From positions 1-55,032 of the forward strand of contig JAWXAX010000236.1 of the NCBI GenBank assembly GCA_034439735.1: DNA of 55,032 nt. Reading direction: 5' to 3'. Source of the stretch: Rhodothermales bacterium (lineage in GTDB: Bacteria; Bacteroidota; Rhodothermia; Rhodothermales; JAHQVL01). The position numbers and the translations under genes are program-made. How positions within the stretch are numbered: the stretch's first letter is position 1; each line of letters starts with the position of its first letter. This document shows positions 44,769 through 54,257 of the stretch, piece by piece. The notes beneath the pieces were generated by a model, which saw only the letters and a program-made list of their open reading frames with translations, had not been told where the DNA came from and did not search any database.

Positions 44769-46001
44769 TCAGGCATCGAACAGCCTATTCTCCGCCAGGC
44801 ACATCGCAAGTTCTCGGTACGTCTCGCGGATGGCCGCCGGCGTCGGTTTTGCGCCCAGCCGACGTATGATGCGACTCGAAAGTGAGCCTCGGGCCAGCAC
44901 GGCCTCCAGCACATCAACCAGCTCGGGTTCCACATCAGCCCGGACCTGCTCGAAGAGGTGCTGCCACACGCTGCCGGCATCGGCCGAGAGGGCCGATAGG
45001 CCCATTGTCGCCAGATACGCTTGGTCGCGGATGATGGTGCGTTCGCCGGTGCAGATCACGTCGAGGAAGAGGGCCGCAAGATCGTCCTCATGCCAGCGCT
45101 TCTGCGCCTCGTAGCCACACCAGCGCTGATCCACGAGCGCCCTGGTGACCGCCGCGATCCCGGCGGTAATGGCCAGATCGGCGGCCGGGCACTCCTGAAT
45201 GTCGACGATGCGGATTTCGATCGCGCTGCGGTCAAATCGAGCAATCGCTCCACGCGAGTTCATGAACGTGGATTGCAGGATGCCCTGGCCGTCAAAGGGC
45301 GCGATACCTTCCTGGATCGGGAGGTAGATTCGCTGGTGGTAGTCGGCCTGCGTGAAAACCGCCTCCGGGACCACCTTGCCGGCGATTGCAGGAATCCGTT
45401 TCTGGTTATGCCGATAGGTCTCGAGCCGGCTATCTAAGAATCCGGTATACGCCCCATCCAGCAGGGGTGTGCTGGCACTTAGCGCCGGGATGATGGGGAG
45501 CAGGAGGCGAATGGCCGCGTGTAGCCGACCGAACTCGTCGTCTCCATCAAACGGCAGGTTGATGTGAGTGCTCTGGAGGTTCGCCCATCCGTGTCCCCGG
45601 CAATCGAATATCTCGTTGTAGAGTTGGTAGACCTCGTTGAATTCGTGCGGCCAGAGCTGTGTCTCCTTGAACGGATCCATGAACGGATGGGCTCCGGTCG
45701 GCATCAGCATGGCGCCAAACGGCGCCAGATGGTCGTTCACGGCCTGGACGTTAGCGGCAAACAGCGCCGATAAGCCGGCAAGGGTGGGTGCTGGCCCGTT
45801 GGTTTTAAGCTCGATGACATGATTCACGAGCTCGTTCGACCAGCCGATGGCGCCATTTTCGATGTCATCATACGTGCCCGACACCGCAAATAACATGGCA
45901 TCGACAATCGGGCGGATCGCGAGGGTATCGCGGTCCACCACCATGTATTCGAGTTCGACCCCGAAGGCCTCAAACAGGCCGTGACGACGGTTGAGCGGCA
46001 T
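44769..46001 (-). CDS. GCS2-family glutamate-cysteine ligase-like amidoligase
   Basis: 410 residues from the ATG at 46001. The sequence begins with RRHGLFEAFGVELEYMVVDRDT, the GCS2/YbdK-type opening with the metal- and glutamate-binding acids (FGVELEYM), and continues with the QLWPHEFNEVYQLYNEIFDCRGHGWANLQSTHINLPFDGDDE core typical of the glutamine-synthetase-like amidoligase fold. It is predicted to join a glutamate-like acid to an amine using ATP. It overlaps the ATP-grasp gene by 32 bp and is the last of the three-gene cassette, so it acts in the same pathway. Product unknown. Confidence 0.82.
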   Translation of the reverse strand: MPLNRRHGLFEAFGVELEYMVVDRDTLAIRPIVDAMLFAVSGTYDDIENGAIGWSNELVNHVIELKTNGPAPTLAGLSALFAANVQAVNDHLAPFGAMLMPTGAHPFMDPFKETQLWPHEFNEVYQLYNEIFDCRGHGWANLQSTHINLPFDGDDEFGRLHAAIRLLLPIIPALSASTPLLDGAYTGFLDSRLETYRHNQKRIPAIAGKVVPEAVFTQADYHQRIYLPIQEGIAPFDGQGILQSTFMNSRGAIARFDRSAIEIRIVDIQECPAADLAITAGIAAVTRALVDQRWCGYEAQKRWHEDDLAALFLDVICTGERTIIRDQAYLATMGLSALSADAGSVWQHLFEQVRADVEPELVDVLEAVLARGSLSSRIIRRLGAKPTPAAIRETYRELAMCLAENRLFDA

Positions 46002-47469
46002 GCGCAATACCGAGTTTGGCTTCTATGCGCGTTTTTAAGGCCTGGATGATACGGACATAAAGCTCGTCTTTCAGCACATTGTCTTCGACCCCGACATCGA
46101 TATTCGGGTTGTCGTTTACCTCAATCAAATAGGGCTTGCCATCAATTTCCTTCAGATCCACCCCGAACAGGCCATCGCCTATCAGGTTCGTGGCTTTTAA
46201 TGCGGCCTCTACGATAGCCGGCGGAGCGTGTTCTACCGGGATCGTTGCATATTCGCCCATGATATCCTCCTTCTCCCCATGCCAGTTATAAATCTGCCAG
46301 TGCCCCTTCGCCATGAAGTACTGGCAGGCGAACAACGGCTTGCCGTCCAGGATGCCAATCCGCCAGTCAAAAGTAGTCGGTAAATACTCCTGAGCGATCA
46401 CCAGCTCGGATTCACTGAGCATCCGGTCCACTTCCGCTTTGAGCTCCGCCGACGTTTGTACCTTTTTCACACCCACCGAAAACGACGAATCCGGCAGCTT
46501 CAGGACGCACGGAAGCCCCAATTCTTTCTCTAACGTATCCAGATTGTCCGCATGTACGATGACTGTTTTCGGCGTGAGGATCTTGGCCAATTGGAGCACT
46601 TCCGCCAGATAGACCTTGTTCGCGCAACGAAGAATGGCCTTCGGCGTGTCGATCACGGCCATCCCTTCGGACGAAGCCCGGCTCGCAAACCGGTACGTGT
46701 GATGATCGACCGCTGTGGTTTCACGGATAAACAGGGCGTCGAACTCGCCGATTCGGCTGTAGTCCTCTCGCGTAATCAATTCGACGCTGAAACCCAGTTT
46801 TTCCGCGGCGTCGACGAATTTCTGGATGGCCTTGGGGTCCGACGGCGGCGATTTCTCCTCGGGGTTCACCAGTATCGCGAGGTCGTACAGGAATTCGCTC
46901 GCCTTCGTTTTATCGTACCGTTTCTTGGCAAAGTACTGCCGCGCCGTCTGTTGGACGAAATCCACATGACTATCTGGAATCTCACTGCGGTCGATCGCGC
47001 GAATGCTCTGTAAGATCCATTTTTTCAAGCTCTTACTCCACGTAAAACGAGCCCTCAGCAACGGCGCCTGGAACAGTTTGTATAGCTCGAGGCTGAGCCG
47101 GTCGTGTTGCGTCGCAATGTTTTTACCGAAGTAGATACTCAGCACGAACTCCTCCCCCTTGATCCGTCGGAGGCTCCGTTGAATGAGATCGTCCAGCTCG
47201 TCGGACTCAACACGTACCACCGACGGGTTCTTCAGGTCCTGAATGGTCTTCACATTTGGGATTACCTTGTGGCCGCGCGCTTCGGCGAGAAGCGAGACAT
47301 AATAGCCGCGCGACTGGTAGCTGTAGCTCCGGCACAGGTTAAACACCCGTACGTTCTTGAGCGCGGCGAATTCGGGATTGGTCAGGTATTGCTTGGCGGA
47401 CACGACCTCGACGCCTGGCACATCGAGCGTCCAGAGTTTAGGGTAGTGTACTACGACGAGCTTTTTCAT
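45970..47469 (-). CDS. RLAN-domain RimK-like ATP-grasp ligase
   Basis: 499 residues. Residues about 1-160 match the RLAN domain found in front of certain RimK-like ligases (KLVVVHYPKLW, NLCRSYSYQSRGYYVSLLAEARGHKVIP). The ATP-grasp domain (about 260-490) has CVLKLPDSSFSVGVKKV, ELVIAQEYLPTTFDWRIGILDGKP and DGLFGVDLKEIDGKPYLIEVNDNPNID, with ATP/Mg ligands in the last block. It should form an amide or peptide bond from ATP, as RimK does on a protein tail. Its ATG overlaps the C39 gene stop (ATGA), and its 3' end overlaps the GCS2 gene. Confidence 0.88.
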   Translation of the reverse strand: MKKLVVVHYPKLWTLDVPGVEVVSAKQYLTNPEFAALKNVRVFNLCRSYSYQSRGYYVSLLAEARGHKVIPNVKTIQDLKNPSVVRVESDELDDLIQRSLRRIKGEEFVLSIYFGKNIATQHDRLSLELYKLFQAPLLRARFTWSKSLKKWILQSIRAIDRSEIPDSHVDFVQQTARQYFAKKRYDKTKASEFLYDLAILVNPEEKSPPSDPKAIQKFVDAAEKLGFSVELITREDYSRIGEFDALFIRETTAVDHHTYRFASRASSEGMAVIDTPKAILRCANKVYLAEVLQLAKILTPKTVIVHADNLDTLEKELGLPCVLKLPDSSFSVGVKKVQTSAELKAEVDRMLSESELVIAQEYLPTTFDWRIGILDGKPLFACQYFMAKGHWQIYNWHGEKEDIMGEYATIPVEHAPPAIVEAALKATNLIGDGLFGVDLKEIDGKPYLIEVNDNPNIDVGVEDNVLKDELYVRIIQALKTRIEAKLGIAHAAQPSSRPV

Positions 47470-48185
47470 GGAGACGAGAGTGGGGATATCATCAACAGAT
47501 TGGCATCGTACGTCACGACGCCCAGCATGATGGCATTCACGAGACGATTCAGGCCGACCTTGTAGTAACTCTGGCCTGTAAGCGGATTACGCTTGTAGGG
47601 ATCGGCAACGATCACGGAGCCGTTTTCGAAACCACAGAGCACCACGAAGTGCCCCATCGGCTCTCCTTTGAGATCATCGTATACAGACTGATCCAGATGG
47701 TTGGTGTACTCTCGAGTGCAGGCGTACAGGTAGGTGGCGCTGAGTCCGGCGAGGATTGGAAGCCGACGGTCGAAATACCGTCGCAGCAGTTCATGGGTCA
47801 GATCCTCGAAGAGAAAGCTGCCTCCGGCTTCGAGGAAAGCGATGTAGGCATCCGTCGTTGCTTTAAACTTCTTTCCCGTTTTATAACGGAGTTGATCTTT
47901 CAGCTTTAGAATCAGCGTTTCATTAGGCAACAAATCCCAGCTCGGGTCCAGAATCTTGAGGTTGTATGAGTAGATCTGCGCCTGAAACCCGCGACGGAGT
48001 GCATCCAACCCGAGAAAAACCGCCAGCGTCCCCCCCTCCTCCAGATTTTCCACCGAGCCGATCACTTCCTCAAGCTGGACTGGGTCGCCGAAGTACTGAT
48101 AGACCGCCTGAAGACTCGTCGGACCGCACGTGACATCGTCGGGCTGTTCGAGCATCTTGATGTCAAGTACCGGAGAGAAGGGCAT
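47466..48185 (-). CDS. C39-like cysteine peptidase
   Basis: 239 residues from the ATG at 48185; no signal peptide. Papain/C39-like peptidase: the nucleophile C20 in DDVTCGPTSLQAVYQY, a His in PMGHFVVLCGF and Asp in VIVADPYKRNP, all in order. The middle (about 60-170) is helical and unrelated to ABC exporters. No transporter domain is fused, so this is a stand-alone enzyme that could release a leader or cleave an amide made by the two ligases downstream. Its stop overlaps the ATP-grasp start as ATGA. First gene of the cassette. Confidence 0.82.
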   Translation of the reverse strand: MPFSPVLDIKMLEQPDDVTCGPTSLQAVYQYFGDPVQLEEVIGSVENLEEGGTLAVFLGLDALRRGFQAQIYSYNLKILDPSWDLLPNETLILKLKDQLRYKTGKKFKATTDAYIAFLEAGGSFLFEDLTHELLRRYFDRRLPILAGLSATYLYACTREYTNHLDQSVYDDLKGEPMGHFVVLCGFENGSVIVADPYKRNPLTGQSYYKVGLNRLVNAIMLGVVTYDANLLMISPLSSP

Positions 48186-48321
48186 GGCGGAGGAGCAGGG
48201 CTGGGTATGGTGCGGATCAATCGAAGTTGTGCGCCAATGTTCCAGCCGTCCGTGAGGAGCTGGCGATACATGGCGTGGAAGCGGTCCCTGATTCCGGCCC
48301 TCCGCTAACGAACAATTCCTA

Positions 48322-51300
48322 TCAACCCTTCCTCGCTTCACGCAAACGCCCCGCAAGATGCAGGAAAAGCAATAGTAAGCCTACCATGAATACAAACTTG
48401 AGCCAGAGGGGCATCGGCTCCACCAGGCGCGATCCTTCACTCGGCCTGGTTTGGTCCTGCTGGACCTCTTGCCCGTGCGCCACGGGCACTACCTCGGAGC
48501 AGGTGGCCATCTGAACAAAAAGGTAGTTCTCTTTGGTCTCTCTCGGGGAGACGATTGCGCAGAGACCTGACTGATCGGGGGTGGAAGCTCCCCTCGCTTC
48601 CTGGACAAAGCGCCGGCGTGCTTCGTTATCGTGACGCAAGCCGTAGGGCAACACCATCAGATGGACCAGCGTTCCATCCTCCGCATCAAATGCCGTATAC
48701 ACCTCCCCTACGCCTCGAGTGCCCGCCTTGTCCAAAATACGGTATTCCAGAAAGAGCTGGCCAACAGGCCATTCTGTCCGCTCTTCGGGCCTTTTCATAA
48801 GTGGTAGCCCGTTCTGGCCTCCCTCTTCGCCGGCCGTCGGTGCAATCACACGACCCGCTGAGGGTGGTGCGACCGGTTTTAATTCGAGCACGCCCGTTTG
48901 CACAATCTGAATTGGTTTCCGTTTTGGAAGGACTTTAATATCAACATGCTGATTGGCACCTGGCGCCAGGTCGTACTCGTTTTTTTTGAGTTCTATATAA
49001 TGATTAAGTGGAAGTGAGGCCGGCTCTATCGTCAGGGTCCAGCGACCCGGACGCAGATCGGTGTACGAGAATTGGCCTCTCCGATCCGTCGTCTGGACGA
49101 AGTGTTCGGGTCCGTTGCTGATCTCGACACGGATGCCAGCCAATCCTCCTGACTGCTGAATGCCATTACCCCCCTCTGGCCCTTCGACAAAGAAATACTG
49201 CCGGACTCGACCTGATATGGATACGCTGCGGACTATCATTATATCAAGTTCCGTCACTTTGTCGCTTATGGCCAGCTCAATCGGGAGCGCTTGTGTCGGG
49301 AGGCGATCCAGACCTATGGTGGAGCGGTCGATAAACAGGTAGTGTGTGCCCGCACTCGGGTAAAGGAACTGATATTTCCCCTCCGTGTCGGTGAGCGTGT
49401 GGTTTTTTCCAAGCCTCAGCAACACGTCGGATATCCCTAAGCCGGTCTCTCCATCGATGACGCGCCCTGAAATCATTTTAGGCGAAGCTTCCCTCCAAGT
49501 GGGCACATCCAGCGGAACCGTATAGCTCAACGCATAGTCGCTGCTACCATGCTTGATGCCGCCGCCGAATGTGTTGTAGCGTGTTTTAAACGAAATGATA
49601 TGACCAAAGGGTAGGCGATGGTCGTAACCAATCGTTGCCTGGGTGTATTCGGGCAGACGTGAGTTCTTTTCTATACTCGTGTACAAGCTCACATCCATAC
49701 GCGACCGCCCTGAAAGGGTGACATTAGCGCTTATGTTCGCCAGCCAGCGCTGCTGCTGGCGAGCGCTGTAGCGTGTTTGACCGTCGAGATGTTCTACGGA
49801 CAAGTTATAGGCAATCCGGGGCATTTCGATGCGGGAGCGCAGTTCGATGCGTTGGTACGTGCCCGTGTTATCAATGCCCGAGCTTTTTAATCGATTTTGC
49901 CCTTGCTCGAATACGCCTGTCAAACCAAAGCCCTGCGCCGTGAAGCCGGACGAGACACGTATGGCCGTGTAGGTGCGATCTTGTTGGGCTACATGCTGAA
50001 CCTGGTCGTCATAATACACGTCAAAAAATGCCGATCGCTGAGCAACCCGGCGCCATAACCCACCTCCGAATCGATAGGCTCGAGTCGTTCGATTCGCCGG
50101 GTCCGCGATGGATTCGCTTTCAAAGCCTCGCGACTCGGCCCGCCAACTGCCCTCGAAACGCAACCAGCGCACGGGTCTGAAGATGAGATTCGCTGAACCG
50201 AGGTCAAGATCGCTGTAGTAGCCCGGGTATAGTGGATCGGCATGGACCAGACGGGCTCCGTACGCAATCAGGGACTGGTTGCCGACTAGTTCAAATGAGG
50301 CGGCTTTGGTCAACTTCCCCAGTCGACGTCCGACCCCCACTTCGGTGTCGATCTGTGTGTTGAGTGCCGGCCTGACTACGCCGCGTAGTGTAACGGCCTG
50401 CCCTTCCACATAACCTGTCCGACGAAGGGCGTTAGCGCTCAATTCTGTTATCGAATTGAGCCTGTAACGCACAAAAGCGGTCTGTTGGCCTTGTTCCCCG
50501 ACCGTTTGCCGGCCCTGACCGTGGAAGGCGCCAATCCCAAAGCGCCCGACACTCGTTTCTCCGCCTGCACCGAACAGATACCGGCCCCATTCGGTTAGTG
50601 GCGACAGTACATGCGTTTGATCACCAAGTCGTAGGGAGCCTTTATCTCCTGAAAATGCCAGCCGATATTCATCACGTAGCCCAAAGGACGAGCGGTCACG
50701 CCGATCGGGTGCGCGCAATAAAATATCCATTGTAGTCCCCCCTGGGCTCCGGCTCCGACCGGTCACTTCCAACTGCGTTCCGGCTCCGCGTTGATCCCCG
50801 GTCGTTCGCAGGGTGGTCGCCAGTGGGTATTCGCGAGCGACTCGCGGGACGTGCGGGGCTCGGGGAATCACGTCAATACGTGTAGACGCGTCCACCGTAT
50901 GCTCGGGGGCATCCCGTACCGAGGCCTCGACTCGCAACGCATAGTGTGTCGTGACAGGAATTAGACGTGGCGTTTCAACGACCAGAGCAAGTTGACGTGA
51001 TCCCCCGACAGGAAGCTCGATCGAGGAGGCCTCGAGGGTTGATTTCCAGTTTAAATTCCCCCTGGCGCTTAGCAGGACGGTGATCTCTCTGTTACCGCGA
51101 TTATGGAGGAGAATGGTGGCCCGGATGGGTTCGCCGGCGCGCACATGACGCGGGAATTCAGTAATCTGAATATCAGCGAGGCTCGACGGACGGACGGACA
51201 CCTCTACTTCCGCCTCGGCGGAAGATTCAGCGTCTCCGTCATACCATACGGTAAGCCGTATCACATAAGGCGTCGGTTCCGCCTTTTCTGGCACTTTGAA

Positions 51301-51606
51301 ACTGATCAGGCGAGAGATGGAATCCCGGGCGGCGACCATGAACTCGGAGGGGGGGATGATGGCGCGCCAGCCATCTGGCACTTCGACCGCGGAAACAACA
51401 AGGCGCTTTTCCGGATCGGTGCTACTGACTCGAAAAACGGCGGTGTATACCTCTCCGGGCACCGCCTCCACGAACGTAGCGCCGGCGACATCTACCCGCA
51501 CCCCGCGACTCATCTGTCCAGTCGCTGTTGACCCCACCGCCACGCTGATCGACAGGAATGAAAGGAGGAAGATACGGGACGCGATATATCCTTGGCAGTT
51601 TCCCAC
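48322..51606 (-). CDS. Usher-like envelope protein with C-terminal pseudokinase N-lobe
   Basis: 1094 residues. Signal peptide about 1-31. Residues about 32-250 are NEW3/COG1470-like beta-sandwiches; about 255-705 alternate short strands and resemble an outer-membrane barrel; about 710-770 and 796-897 are carboxypeptidase-regulatory-like beta domains. Residues about 955-1038 read like the N-lobe of a Ser/Thr kinase, and a membrane helix (about 1066-1086) ends the chain. The kinase part has GVGEVYTAFD and RRFVQEARGAS, but the ATP lysine is Met (VHLMVLP) and the whole C-lobe is absent. The start is GTG two bases past the chaperone gene stop. Last gene of the surface cluster; assembly role is inferred. 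Confidence 0.6.
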   Translation of the reverse strand: MGNCQGYIASRIFLLSFLSISVAVGSTATGQMSRGVRVDVAGATFVEAVPGEVYTAVFRVSSTDPEKRLVVSAVEVPDGWRAIIPPSEFMVAARDSISRLISFKVPEKAEPTPYVIRLTVWYDGDAESSAEAEVEVSVRPSSLADIQITEFPRHVRAGEPIRATILLHNRGNREITVLLSARGNLNWKSTLEASSIELPVGGSRQLALVVETPRLIPVTTHYALRVEASVRDAPEHTVDASTRIDVIPRAPHVPRVAREYPLATTLRTTGDQRGAGTQLEVTGRSRSPGGTTMDILLRAPDRRDRSSFGLRDEYRLAFSGDKGSLRLGDQTHVLSPLTEWGRYLFGAGGETSVGRFGIGAFHGQGRQTVGEQGQQTAFVRYRLNSITELSANALRRTGYVEGQAVTLRGVVRPALNTQIDTEVGVGRRLGKLTKAASFELVGNQSLIAYGARLVHADPLYPGYYSDLDLGSANLIFRPVRWLRFEGSWRAESRGFESESIADPANRTTRAYRFGGGLWRRVAQRSAFFDVYYDDQVQHVAQQDRTYTAIRVSSGFTAQGFGLTGVFEQGQNRLKSSGIDNTGTYQRIELRSRIEMPRIAYNLSVEHLDGQTRYSARQQQRWLANISANVTLSGRSRMDVSLYTSIEKNSRLPEYTQATIGYDHRLPFGHIISFKTRYNTFGGGIKHGSSDYALSYTVPLDVPTWREASPKMISGRVIDGETGLGISDVLLRLGKNHTLTDTEGKYQFLYPSAGTHYLFIDRSTIGLDRLPTQALPIELAISDKVTELDIMIVRSVSISGRVRQYFFVEGPEGGNGIQQSGGLAGIRVEISNGPEHFVQTTDRRGQFSYTDLRPGRWTLTIEPASLPLNHYIELKKNEYDLAPGANQHVDIKVLPKRKPIQIVQTGVLELKPVAPPSAGRVIAPTAGEEGGQNGLPLMKRPEERTEWPVGQLFLEYRILDKAGTRGVGEVYTAFDAEDGTLVHLMVLPYGLRHDNEARRRFVQEARGASTPDQSGLCAIVSPRETKENYLFVQMATCSEVVPVAHGQEVQQDQTRPSEGSRLVEPMPLWLKFVFMVGLLLLFLHLAGRLREARKG
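48493..48744 (-). other. Degenerate protein-kinase N-lobe inside the usher-like gene
   Basis: Codes residues about 955-1038. It matches the bacterial PknB-like N-lobe order: YRILDKAG, GVGEVYTAFDAEDG, VHLMVLP (normally VALKVLP), EARRRFVQEARGAS (alphaC glutamate kept), then YLFVQM (normally LFIAME). The ATP-binding lysine is replaced and there is no HRD or DFG, so no phosphotransfer is possible. Confidence 0.65.
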
Positions 51607-51608
51607 TG

Positions 51609-52427
51609 TTATAAGACGAGCGTATACTGAGCTCCAACGATGTAGTCGCCAGCGGCCTCGACAACAATGAGTGCCTCATAGTTGCCCTTCGCGAGGTGGT
51701 TTAACTCCATGCGCTGCATGACCGATGTGCCTGGATATAACCGGAAAGAACTCCCCATGAGGCGCTCCTTCTCGCTGCCGGCCGCATCGTAGATCTCTAC
51801 CCAGACGGACGGACTGATCATCGCGTCTCCGGTGTTTTCAATTATGACTTCCAACACCTTGCGGCCATCCGCCTCGGCGATCAAATCAACCCCCGTAAAT
51901 GAGACATCATAGCGCGCCTGTTCCTCGATGTGCGTGGCCACTTGAACCCCATAACGCATTACCTGGCGTACACCATATTCAACCGCTTGAGGCTTCCTGG
52001 GCAGACGCGATTCGGAGTCTCCAGCCTGTATAGGCTCTACCATCAACATGCTCCAATACGTGCCAGACAAGGGCTCCCCACCCACCGACTCGGGTACCGT
52101 CACCGAATAGTTGACGGGTATGGTTTCGCCCGGGGGAATAAGGAGGAGGGCAGGGCTGAAGTCGATCCAGGTAGCATTCGAGCGCAGCGTCGATCCAGGT
52201 TCACCGTATTCATTGGTGCCATCGGCGTAAAACAGATAGTCGGTCTGATATATCTTCGCTTCTTGCGGCTGTGCCGTATCGTTTCTGATGAGGATCTCAG
52301 CGTGGTAGATCATTCCTGGCTTCACCGGTTTATCCTGAGCGAGTCCGGTTCGAAGCGAGATCTGACCACGCGCATCGGCTGCCATACAGAAGAGAAGCAA
52401 GAGAAGGCTGCGTCGCATCGTCGACAT
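51609..52427 (-). CDS. Fimbrial-chaperone/DUF916-like secreted protein
   Basis: 272 residues with a signal peptide (about 1-22). The body is two beta-sandwiches: ISLRTGLAQDKPVKPGMIYHAEILIRNDTAQPQEAKIY and SPALLLIPPGETIPVNYSVTVPES follow the pattern of pilus-chaperone and DUF916 (WxL-interacting) immunoglobulin-like domains, and a second sandwich covers about 175-272. This would make it a periplasmic chaperone or a surface-linker protein. It starts 13 nt after the second subunit gene and ends 2 nt before the usher-like gene, so it should act on products of that cluster. The chaperone label is analogy; no donor-strand motif can be proved. Confidence 0.62.
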   Translation of the reverse strand: MSTMRRSLLLLLFCMAADARGQISLRTGLAQDKPVKPGMIYHAEILIRNDTAQPQEAKIYQTDYLFYADGTNEYGEPGSTLRSNATWIDFSPALLLIPPGETIPVNYSVTVPESVGGEPLSGTYWSMLMVEPIQAGDSESRLPRKPQAVEYGVRQVMRYGVQVATHIEEQARYDVSFTGVDLIAEADGRKVLEVIIENTGDAMISPSVWVEIYDAAGSEKERLMGSSFRLYPGTSVMQRMELNHLAKGNYEALIVVEAAGDYIVGAQYTLVL

Positions 52428-52440
52428 AGGGTTTTAATGC

Positions 52441-52920
52441 TTATTGTGCCGTCAGTGTAAATGTAATCGTATGAACGTCATCCCCATTGGCTGCACTCGT
52501 TCCCTGCGCAGCCGTGGCTTCAGCACGGTACTGAAGCGTCCCGCTTCCTATTACACTCTTGCCAATCGATTGTATGAGATCAATGGCGGCCATCCCGTCT
52601 GCAAGCGACCGTTCTGGTTGGGCAGTCCCCTCCACCACGCCTGTCGCTACCAGGTACAAGGAAAAGGACTGACCGGGACAGGCCGTGGAAACCGTTATTT
52701 TGAAGGCGTTCTGGGTGCCGTTGGTCGACCAATCGAGCCTGGTTGCGGTATTCGTTACCGATTGAGGTTGTGATCCCGCAATGGCCGAAACGATAGTGAG
52801 TGTGGGGTTGCCTCCCACCACGGTAAGCGACAACGGGGGTGTTTCGTTCATCCAACCCACCCCCAGCAACAAGGCCAACACACCGGGCCCCGCGGCGGCG
52901 AAAGCCAGCTTTCGATTCAT
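52441..52920 (-). CDS. Small secreted beta-rich subunit (paralogue 2)
   Basis: 159 residues; an N-terminal hydrophobic segment (about 8-24) is a signal peptide or anchor. The rest is beta-rich and Thr/Ala/Ser-rich. It is a paralogue of the next gene: NPTLTIVSAIAGSQPQSV aligns with AATLTITINSATAGSAPDD, and the end TAAQGTSAANGDDVHTITFTLTAQ aligns with TAAAVPNEPAGETHTVTLTITNI. Unnamed family. Such Ig-like proteins are good candidates for fibre subunits handled by the chaperone-like gene 13 nt downstream. Only the first has a clean cleavable signal sequence. Confidence 0.68.
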   Translation of the reverse strand: MNRKLAFAAAGPGVLALLLGVGWMNETPPLSLTVVGGNPTLTIVSAIAGSQPQSVTNTATRLDWSTNGTQNAFKITVSTACPGQSFSLYLVATGVVEGTAQPERSLADGMAAIDLIQSIGKSVIGSGTLQYRAEATAAQGTSAANGDDVHTITFTLTAQ

Positions 52921-52943
52921 TCAGTTTGTGTGAACTTGGCTCG

Positions 52944-52959
52944 GCGGGATTCATCCCGC
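52944..52959. promoter_or_regulatory. 7-bp hairpin in the gap between the two subunit genes
   Basis: GCGGGAT TC ATCCCGC, a perfect dyad 23 nt upstream of the second subunit gene. No T tract follows, so it may attenuate, process or stabilise the mRNA rather than terminate it, and could set different levels of the two subunits. The rest of the 240-bp gap shows no gene. Confidence 0.3.
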
Positions 52960-53160
52960 GGTATGCAGAAGAAATGCGATCAAGACGCTGATGTGAATGC
53001 GCCCATACTACGCAGTCAGTTTATGGCTGCGGAGTCTACGTGAAATGAAAACCCGTTATTCTGAAAATCAAGGCCGCTTTATTACCAGGAAGCGTATTGA
53101 AGAGCGGATAACATACCTCGACGGGCATCGTGGTTGAAGTGAAGAGCAGCAGGATGCGGC

Positions 53161-53655
53161 TCAAATATTTGTAATCGTAAGGGTGACCGTATGCGTCTCG
53201 CCGGCAGGCTCATTGGGCACGGCGGCAGCGGTTGCCGCTGCCGTGTATTTGATTTGCAGTGCCATTCCGGTGACACGCGTAATGCCTGTAACAAGGTCTG
53301 ATGCACTCCCCGACGTCAGGGTGACTTCTCCGGCTGATGTGGCACCAGCTGGTTCCGTCAATTCGATAGCGAGGCTGATGCCGGCTGCATAGTCTACATC
53401 CAGCTGCCCGGTGATCTTCTTGTTCGCCCCATTACTCGTGATGTTGTACGTTGTCGTGAGGTCGGTCGCATCGTCGGGCGCGCTGCCGGCCGTCGCTGAA
53501 TTGATCGTGATGGTCAGGGTCGCAGCTGAAACGGTGATCTCATTAATCTCCTGAACGACCACTGTCACGTTTTGTGTCTCGCTCTGAGCAACAACCAGCG
53601 GCGCTAGCCACAGGCTAGCAATCAGAAGAGTTATGACAAGTTTGAAGCTACGCAT
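53161..53655 (-). CDS. Small secreted beta-rich subunit (paralogue 1)
   Basis: 164 residues from ATG 53655, with a clear signal peptide (about 1-23, VVA-Q). The mature part begins QNVTVVVQEINEITVSAATLTITINSATAGSAPDDATDLTTTYNITSNGANKKITG and continues in alternating strands to the last residue, with no cysteines. It is paralogous to the gene at 52441-52920. A single-domain, Thr/Ala-rich beta-sandwich of this kind fits a major surface or fibre subunit. It is first in a minus-strand cluster of four genes and has a 602-nt gene-free leader. Named family not recognised. Confidence 0.72.
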   Translation of the reverse strand: MRSFKLVITLLIASLWLAPLVVAQSETQNVTVVVQEINEITVSAATLTITINSATAGSAPDDATDLTTTYNITSNGANKKITGQLDVDYAAGISLAIELTEPAGATSAGEVTLTSGSASDLVTGITRVTGMALQIKYTAAATAAAVPNEPAGETHTVTLTITNI

Positions 53656-54257
53656 CTTGGCTACGGTAAGGCTTTGATACTGTCGGGCACGTCTGATCAC
53701 CCACTCTCCCAGGGATCGGCCATCGCGATTCAGCCTTTAAGTGTTTTCACTTACGACATTAATGATCGGGTTTTCTGTGGATTTCATGCGGACGGGGGCG
53801 GTTTTCGAGGCGCGATGCGGCGGTTCCCACGAGCAAAAGAGCGAAGAGGACCGCTGAATCGACACATAAGGCAGGCGGCGTCTATCAAAAACATCCTGAC
53901 GCTACTTCGCACGAAAATGCAAATCGGATACCATCACTCCGTCCGCAGCCCCTGGCCGTCTTTTGTCGATCGCGGGTGCTTAATCGAGCTGGCAGAAGGA
54001 AAATCCTGCCGATGGAAGGTGCGACTGACTCCCTCCCGTAGGGCTCCCCGAAGGGCGGAAGCAGACGTCTTCTCCGGGTGTTGCATCGTAGCGCTGCCCT
54101 CAACCCATCAACCAGGTAACGTGTGTGACGTCACGGTGCAATTATTAAAACACATATGTAATGACATATGATTATTTTGGACAAGGGCTCCCCGACACAG
54201 CGGGTGTGTGGCCGTTGAATCCAACGTCATGCTCCTCCTGAAGGATGTGACCGTGTG
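53656..54257 (-). promoter_or_regulatory. 602-bp gene-free leader of the surface cluster
   Basis: No supported gene. An AT-rich block (about 54141-54180) with two CATATG palindromes (54153-54158, 54165-54170) and a TAATAAT-like element on the minus strand looks like a promoter; the palindrome GTGACGTCAC (54125-54134) is just downstream of it. The predicted minus-strand leader holds two UNCG-type loops (CCC UUCG GGG at 54046-54055; CC UACG GG at 54035-54042) enclosed by CUUCC/GGGAG, and a GGCAG/CTGCC stem at 53991-54010. No known riboswitch was recognised. Confidence 0.4.

Follow-up and report, generated by a model that had tools for sequence, protein, structure and literature searches.

The minus-strand block of four genes analysed here raises the question of what its products build. 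An earlier note on the window, a 55,032-nucleotide stretch from a Rhodothermales bacterium, had described two paralogous small secreted proteins (S179 and S159), a chaperone/DUF916-like protein (D272) and a 1094-residue barrel-like protein (B1094) in an FCB-group genome. All four open reading frames were confirmed where it had placed them, as were the gaps read from the sequence, 13 nt between S159 and D272 and 2 nt between D272 and B1094 (Table 1). S159 is a homologue of S179, as had been claimed, at phmmer values of 2e-7 to 8e-7 and 28% identity, and placement in the FCB group fits because the relatives are titled Rhodothermales or Bacteroidota. An Rfam scan of the window and the upstream region gave no useful match. 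The best reading of the S-D-B cluster, set out below, is an uncatalogued branch of chaperone-usher-like fibre assembly that is related to the WxL/WxLIP system of Gram-positive bacteria.

Table 1. Genes of the cluster and the features assigned within them (window coordinates)
Feature	Position	Strand	Basis
S179, S1-type subunit	ORF 53161-53700; likelier ATG start 53655, giving 53161..53655	minus	ORF list
Putative N-terminal donor strand of S179, SETQNVTVVVQEINEITVS	53527..53583	minus	alternating hydrophobic residues; in S1-type, missing from D-adjacent S2-type
S159, S2-type subunit	52441..52920	minus	ORF list; homology to S179
D272, two-Ig-domain secreted chaperone, predicted WxLIP/PapD-like fold	51609..52427	minus	homologue model
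F1-G1 loop and G1 strand of D272, residues 131-166	51930..52037	minus	invariant columns; L059 model
B1094, usher-like outer-membrane protein	48322..51606	minus	AlphaFold2 model; fold searches; conserved position after D
Two Ig-like domains of B1094, residues 36-247, NEW3/NPCBM_assoc in the first	50866..51501	minus	Pfam PF10633; model; profile similarity to D
Beta barrel of B1094, residues 259-702, about 26 strands listed	49501..50832	minus	model; fold searches
Two CarboxypepD_reg-like sandwiches of B1094, residues 711-894	48925..49476	minus	Pfam; usher structure matches; profile alignment
Degenerate Ser/Thr kinase N-lobe of B1094, residues 947-1035	48502..48768	minus	NCBIfam 4e-6
C-terminal hydrophobic helix of B1094, residues 1067-1093	48328..48408	minus	model helix; hydrophobic sequence

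The gene set is conserved across phyla

We collected 80 loci, from more than 12 phylum-level groups, by the D gene alone. The B gene lies directly downstream of D, within 700 nt, in 79 of them; the sole exception, L092, has B upstream of D. S genes lie upstream of D in 77 loci, and the other three are at contig ends. Because these loci were fetched by D only, such regular neighbours point to clustering beyond chance. The S(n)-D-B cluster is real and conserved, and the co-occurrence check proposed in the earlier note finds the set kept together in related and distant genomes alike. A short S2-type gene adjoins D in other loci too, including 19 overlooked by our first S profile. Those titled host groups that could be placed are double-membraned, which fits the cluster, since an outer-membrane barrel requires such an envelope. 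Several Rhodothermales loci have a large protein next to the cluster, and the one examined carries a Por_Secre_tail domain. The literature that we covered, mainly freely accessible texts, contains no description of the S-D-B cluster, though an earlier one is possible, and none that unites WxL and chaperone-usher proteins in one system.

D272 resembles both WxLIP and pilus chaperones

The fold of D was taken from the structure model of a homologue (locus L059) that is about 47% identical to D272. The best solved match to this model is WxLIP of Enterococcus, aligned through both domains over 230 residues (Z 16.8). Chaperones of chaperone-usher systems also match over both domains (CfaA, Z 13.2; FimC, 12.8; CsuC, 12.4, the last over 181 residues at 4.3 A), and the match list consists of chaperones almost throughout. 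Both halves of the label 'chaperone/DUF916-like' were therefore right, WxLIP being a DUF916-DUF3324 protein. Judged by the homologue model, D272 belongs to the two-domain chaperone family.

Sequence searches are less telling. Pfam gave no PapD_N, PF06030 or PF11797 match on D272 itself, NCBIfam gave none on D, and the D and S profiles, run against PDB sequences, hit nothing credible. The D family as a whole shows weak WxLIP_PGBD/HBD matches (4 to 5 members for PF06030, 1 to 2 for PF11797), and divergent relatives match WxLIP_PGBD at 1.8e-6, above the cut-off, and PapD_N at 9e-4; those of the Balneolaceae type are neighbours of DUF4402 proteins. No C-terminal transmembrane helix was found in the 54 family sequences, whose maximum 19-residue hydropathy is 1.63.

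The L059 model has a long loop between the F1 and G1 strands, and R158, Q162 and H166 of D272 are invariant columns in the D-family alignment. In position this region corresponds to the WxLIP donor hairpin and the pilus-chaperone G1 strand (PMC10599100, PMC4654587). By analogy, we propose G1 of D272 as a putative donor that would complete the subunit. When D was compared by eye with the carboxylate-anchor residues of EcpB, on a low-probability alignment, its motif R-x-Y-P-G-T-S looked similar to the part of EcpB around Tyr169, a likeness that is suggestive only and was left out of the evidence.

B1094 is an usher-like protein with unusual ends

Ushers of chaperone-usher systems consist of a 24-strand barrel with an inserted plug, an N-terminal domain of their own and two C-terminal beta domains. 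That the 1094-residue protein would form a barrel had been set beforehand as a test in the earlier note, and AlphaFold2 predicts a large one, with pLDDT mostly above 90. Together with the co-occurrence of the genes, this supports the reading given there. The description 'barrel-like' holds, however, only for the central part of the protein, as other domains stand at both ends (Table 1). The model has about 26 strands listed, against 24 in ushers, followed by two sandwiches in the right order. Foldseek ranks FimD ushers first to fourth (best E 5e-13), with PapC also among the top matches, and several usher matches span the barrel and the C-terminal domains (257-894). The B profile aligned with nine E. 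coli K-12 ushers over 402 columns at a probability of 87%, where the reversed control gave 18 columns and 45%. By this alignment and the reach of the usher matches, both sandwiches stand where ushers have their C-terminal domains. In a slower structural alignment of the barrel alone, MtrB (Z 21.8, 407 residues) scored above the ushers, and LptD reached 16.8.

B1094 departs from ushers in several respects. The Pfam Usher model (PF00577) matched none of the B proteins scanned and nothing in 60 genomes of the order, although the control search did detect E. coli. A PDB sequence search with B returned CarboxypepD-like and LysM proteins only. No plug-sized insertion between barrel strands is visible in the model. 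The usher-type N-terminal domain is absent by Pfam and model, and two Ig domains with profile similarity to D stand in its place.

The C-terminal part is variable. Compared with kinases of related genomes, the kinase lobe of B1094 has lost the catalytic Lys and has no C-lobe; its pLDDT is low. The helix that follows is, from the model, probably transmembrane, and we propose it as a putative inner-membrane anchor. Among the genomes compared, this combination of dead kinase lobe and transmembrane helix is confined to this one; the B protein of L089 ends in a similar hydrophobic helix. Elsewhere B carries a C-terminal peptidoglycan-binding domain, LysM (7 of 17 proteins) or SPOR (2 of 17, and 8 of 46 in another set). 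Matches to CooC_C, an alternative usher C-terminal domain, in 6 of 46 B proteins were left unused, being weak and unspecific (B. subtilis and Methanosarcina controls also matched). An MscS-like look of the multi-membrane C-termini in L036, L041 and L045 is a likeness by eye, and Pfam found nothing there.

Two kinds of subunit

S proteins fall into two kinds. S1, the S179 type, has an extra N-terminal strand of alternating hydrophobic residues, and S2, the S159 type, lacks it; the distance from signal peptide to aligned core has a median of 48 residues in S1 versus 5 in S2. This difference fits donor-strand exchange in which one subunit forms the tip or initiates the fibre. We propose S179 as a putative polymerising subunit, its N-terminal strand as a candidate donor, and S159 as a candidate tip or initiating subunit. 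No Pfam family was found in the S group and no WxL match in 56 S1 sequences, and the S profile showed no similarity to E. coli pilins outside the N-terminal region. The subunit part of the structure model has pLDDT mostly of 50-90, and the library search, which barely probed it, gave no fold match.

A proposed assembly pathway and its alternatives

We consider it probable that the cluster encodes a surface-fibre assembly line of chaperone-usher-like type. The gene set, its order and conservation, the predicted folds of D and B and the two subunit kinds come out of the computation; the fibre itself, strand donation, the sequence of assembly steps, passage through the barrel and tethering are what we infer. 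S179 and S159 would pass the inner membrane with the help of their signal peptides, each as an incomplete beta-sandwich. In the periplasm D272 would cap every subunit with its own G1 strand and hand it to the outer-membrane barrel B1094, whose Ig and sandwich domains would lie on the periplasmic side. S2, having no N-terminal strand, would come first and form the tip; every following S1 would insert its N-terminal strand into the preceding subunit, displacing the chaperone, and the growing fibre would leave through the barrel. The C-terminal additions of the usher (LysM, SPOR or, here, the dead kinase lobe and hydrophobic helix) may tether it to peptidoglycan or to the inner membrane.

We compared the cluster with classical (FimC/FimD), archaic (CsuC/CsuD) and alternative (CfaA/CfaC, EcpB/EcpC) chaperone-usher systems. 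It shares with them small subunits with and without an N-terminal extension, a two-Ig-domain periplasmic chaperone matched in fold, and a large barrel with C-terminal sandwich domains whose first Foldseek match is an usher. In contrast, the NEW3-type Ig domains replace the usher N-terminal domain, the tails of B are optional, the subunits have no Pfam family, the gene of the tip-like subunit directly adjoins that of the chaperone, and the set is found over many phyla. Four Balneolaceae loci (L154, L159, L160 and L167) are likewise arranged as small protein, then chaperone, then large protein, and their chaperones are picked up by the D profile, but their subunits are DUF4402 proteins and the large protein has another N-terminal region and SPOR repeats.

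The cluster might instead make a diderm version of the WxL/WxLIP surface coat, in which D would hold the S proteins, WxL-like modules that bind the wall or surface, B would be only their exporter or anchor, and there would be no linear fibre. WxLIP as the nearest solved structure to D, the weak Pfam matches in the family and one above the cut-off in a divergent relative, the LysM and SPOR domains on B, the small beta-rich partners in one operon and the predicted insertion of a WxLIP hairpin strand into WxL (PMC10599100) all agree with this. S, however, has no WxL match in Pfam, and the extra strand of S1 suits polymerisation. WxLIP bears a C-terminal transmembrane helix, and D shows none. The S-D-B cluster has an outer-membrane barrel, which WxL clusters are not known to possess. 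We think such a coat unlikely.

B could also be a large porin or export channel, MtrB- or LptD-like, with D and S as periplasmic or surface accessories and no strand-exchange assembly. Ushers align to the barrel no better than these proteins do; yet Foldseek puts ushers first, with several alignments running on into the C-terminal domains, D is chaperone-like, and the cluster has no cytochrome or LPS genes. This makes the channel decidedly improbable. Even less credible is an island of type IX secretion substrates or adhesins, to which S and B would belong as cargo or as accessories. It would account for the large neighbours in several Rhodothermales loci, one of which has the Por_Secre_tail domain; the window cluster has no comparable neighbour, and S-D-B also occurs in phyla not expected to have type IX secretion.

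Implications

Most knowledge of chaperone-usher fibres comes from Proteobacteria. The S-D-B set is conserved in more than 12 phylum-level groups and is invisible to the Pfam Usher model. Since D resembles both WxLIP and pilus chaperones in structure, it may connect two systems hitherto studied apart. A wider idea, which we hold tentatively and on balance slightly doubt, is that the cluster represents an ancient, separate strand-donating branch of fibre assembly, spread over diderms and having its chaperone in common with WxL/WxLIP, so that chaperone-usher pili and WxL proteins would be two ends of one family. If our proposal is true, surface systems of Gram-positive and Gram-negative bacteria would be joined through one mechanism, strand donation would be predicted in both, and many unannotated genes would gain a testable function.

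A conserved cluster of subunit, chaperone and barrel genes

Sequence inspection bears out the earlier note's four minus-strand ORFs, with their lengths and gaps. S179 and S159 are homologous secreted proteins by sequence comparison. The window is the entire contig C236 of its genome (G000), and record titles of relatives read Rhodothermales or Bacteroidota.

Coordinates of the cluster genes and of the parts of B1094
Feature	Window position	Strand	B1094 residues	Basis or remark
S179	53161-53655 (counted from ATG)	minus		ORF
S159	52441-52920	minus		ORF
D272	51609-52427	minus		ORF, after S genes
B1094	48322-51606	minus		ORF, after D272
Two Ig domains			36-247	AlphaFold2 model
Barrel strands			259-702	AlphaFold2 model, pLDDT mostly >90
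Two sandwiches			711-894	AlphaFold2 model
Degenerate Ser/Thr-kinase N-lobe	48502-48768	minus	947-1035	Many kinases match just this part

The earlier note expected these genes to recur together in related genomes, and they do. In 19 neighbourhoods of B homologues within the window's taxonomic order, D lies directly upstream of nearly every intact B, with S preceding D. When the D profile by itself was run independently against genome contigs, 80 loci came back, of which at least 10 duplicate loci already found within the order. B is the next gene on the same strand, at most 700 nt from D, in 79 of the 80; the exception, locus L092, has B upstream of S and D. In 77 loci S genes precede D, and the other three have less than 120 nt of upstream sequence. 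The S-D-B cluster is thus real and conserved. By record titles, which may be wrong for MAGs, the hosts are Bacteroidota/Ignavibacteria/Rhodothermia, Deltaproteobacteria groups, Gammaproteobacteria, Spirochaetales, Planctomycetota, Armatimonadetes, Acidobacteriota, Gemmatimonadetes, KSB1, Zixibacteria, Riflebacteria, Krumholzibacteriota, Halanaerobiales (Orenia) and Acetomicrobium. These groups are double-membraned or plausibly so. Because D is present in 32 of 296 genomes of the window's phylum and in 5 of 149 of the class of another genome, G147, we regard the cluster as widespread but patchy.

Several other features were seen around these loci. Directly downstream in the window (44769-48284), a single tight block on the same strand encodes a relative of GCS2-type glutamate-cysteine ligase, a RimK of the ATP-grasp type that has an RLAN domain, and a peptidase resembling C39. 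The block may be an amino-acid ligase operon with no link to the proposed fibre. Between S179 and a GNAT gene, about 550 nt (53701-54257) carry GC-rich, inverted-looking stretches with no Rfam match. The window's own genome holds a second D (L162, G000:C29, 8155-9012) with no S or B nearby, adjoining a Band_7/flotillin-type gene; a same-family genome has a similar orphan (L163). At locus L036 (1608-4685) a large secreted protein with a Por_Secre_tail (type IX sorting) domain adjoins the cluster, as do similar large proteins at several Rhodothermales loci.

A WxLIP-like chaperone and two subunit types

D was modelled from locus L059, a homologue about 47% identical to the window's, jointly with the upstream subunit and with the intervening stop read as glycine. 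The D half has pLDDT mostly above 90; the subunit half lies mostly at 50-90, and the fold matches listed cover D only. The best solved match, at Z 16.8 across 230 residues, is a WxL-bound chain of Enterococcus faecium WxLIP, followed by CfaA (13.2), FimC (12.8) and YadV (12.7); CsuC gives 12.4 (4.3 A over 181 residues). The chaperone/DUF916-like call of the earlier note is thereby upheld. D272 itself has no Pfam match over cut-off; the family matches WxLIP_PGBD (5e-4) and WxLIP_HBD (3e-4) weakly. Among divergent relatives, that in L153 matches WxLIP_PGBD above cut-off (1.8e-6) and that in L159 matches PapD_N (9e-4); Balneolaceae-type ones adjoin DUF4402 proteins. Balneolaceae loci L154, L159, L160 and L167 combine a small protein of the DUF4402 type (checked in L154 and L159), a PapD-like chaperone and a large protein, with SPOR repeats in L167, and are a parallel version of the S-D-B plan.

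In D, the F1-G1 loop is long, and the G1 strand has R158, Q162 and H166 invariant. For WxLIP, insertion of a hairpin strand into WxL has been reported as a prediction (PMC10599100), and the chaperones of chaperone-usher systems lend their G1 strand to the subunits (PMC4654587). By analogy, D would lend its G1 strand to the subunit.

S proteins matched no Pfam family. With cleavage sites placed by a simple rule, the median distance from signal peptide to aligned core is 48 residues in the S1 type (S179) versus 5 in the S2 type (S159) (Mann-Whitney p about 1e-15, from related, non-independent sequences). The extra S1 stretch includes an alternating-hydrophobic strand, such as QNVTVVVQEINEITVS in S179. 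S2 adjoins D, and among the 24 loci where the gap preceding D was unexplained, 19 held an ORF aligning with the short S2 type. The tip subunit of a chaperone-usher pilus has no N-terminal extension, whereas the other subunits use theirs for donor-strand exchange; by analogy, this suggests that S2 is a tip or initiator subunit.

An usher-like barrel with a variable tail

The AlphaFold2 model of B1094 (72 alignment rows; mean pLDDT 81.4, pTM 0.61) agrees with the earlier description of this protein as barrel-like. Foldseek ranks FimD first to fourth (best E 5e-13) and PapC 13th and 16th. For the barrel, a slower structural aligner favours MtrB (Z 21.8) over LptD (16.8), PapC (16.4) and FimD (16.1); several of its usher alignments reach residue 893-894, covering the C-terminal domains, at a high rmsd of 13-14 A. 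Against nine E. coli K-12 ushers, the B profile aligned over 402 columns (probability 87%), versus 18 columns (45%) for a reversed control. Yet Pfam Usher matched neither the B proteins scanned nor 60 genomes of the order, and no plug-sized insertion is seen in the modelled barrel, so we call it usher-like without placing it in the Usher family. The N-terminal Ig pair resembles D by profile (probability 92-97%), which may reflect general Ig similarity.

Beyond residue 894 the model is of low confidence up to 1065, then helical. Many B homologues stop where the second sandwich ends, while others continue into SPOR or LysM domains or a C-terminal hydrophobic helix (as at locus L089). Among the homologues compared, only the window's B carries the kinase lobe (NCBIfam match, 952-1011). 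The catalytic lysine position reads VHLM instead of VALK and the C-lobe is absent, which rules out an ordinary active kinase. A hydrophobic helix follows it; given this and the signal peptide, a periplasmic location is expected for the lobe, which may belong to an inner-membrane tether.

Relation to known systems

The MtrB and LptD matches would fit a porin-type reading of B, which we consider weaker, since neither cytochrome nor LPS genes are present in the cluster. The main rival is a diderm WxL-like coat without fibres. WxLIP is indeed the best solved match of D, but the cluster has a barrel, D has no detectable membrane helix and the S1 strand suits polymerisation; we judge such a coat unlikely. 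The predicted fold of D resembles that of chaperone-usher chaperones; the modelled barrel and sandwiches of B1094 and the subunits with and without an N-terminal strand may be further points of likeness to that pathway, although B differs from ushers in its Pfam result and in the lack of a visible plug in the model. We read the cluster as an apparently uncatalogued form of chaperone-usher-like assembly whose chaperone resembles WxLIP, its function being predicted.
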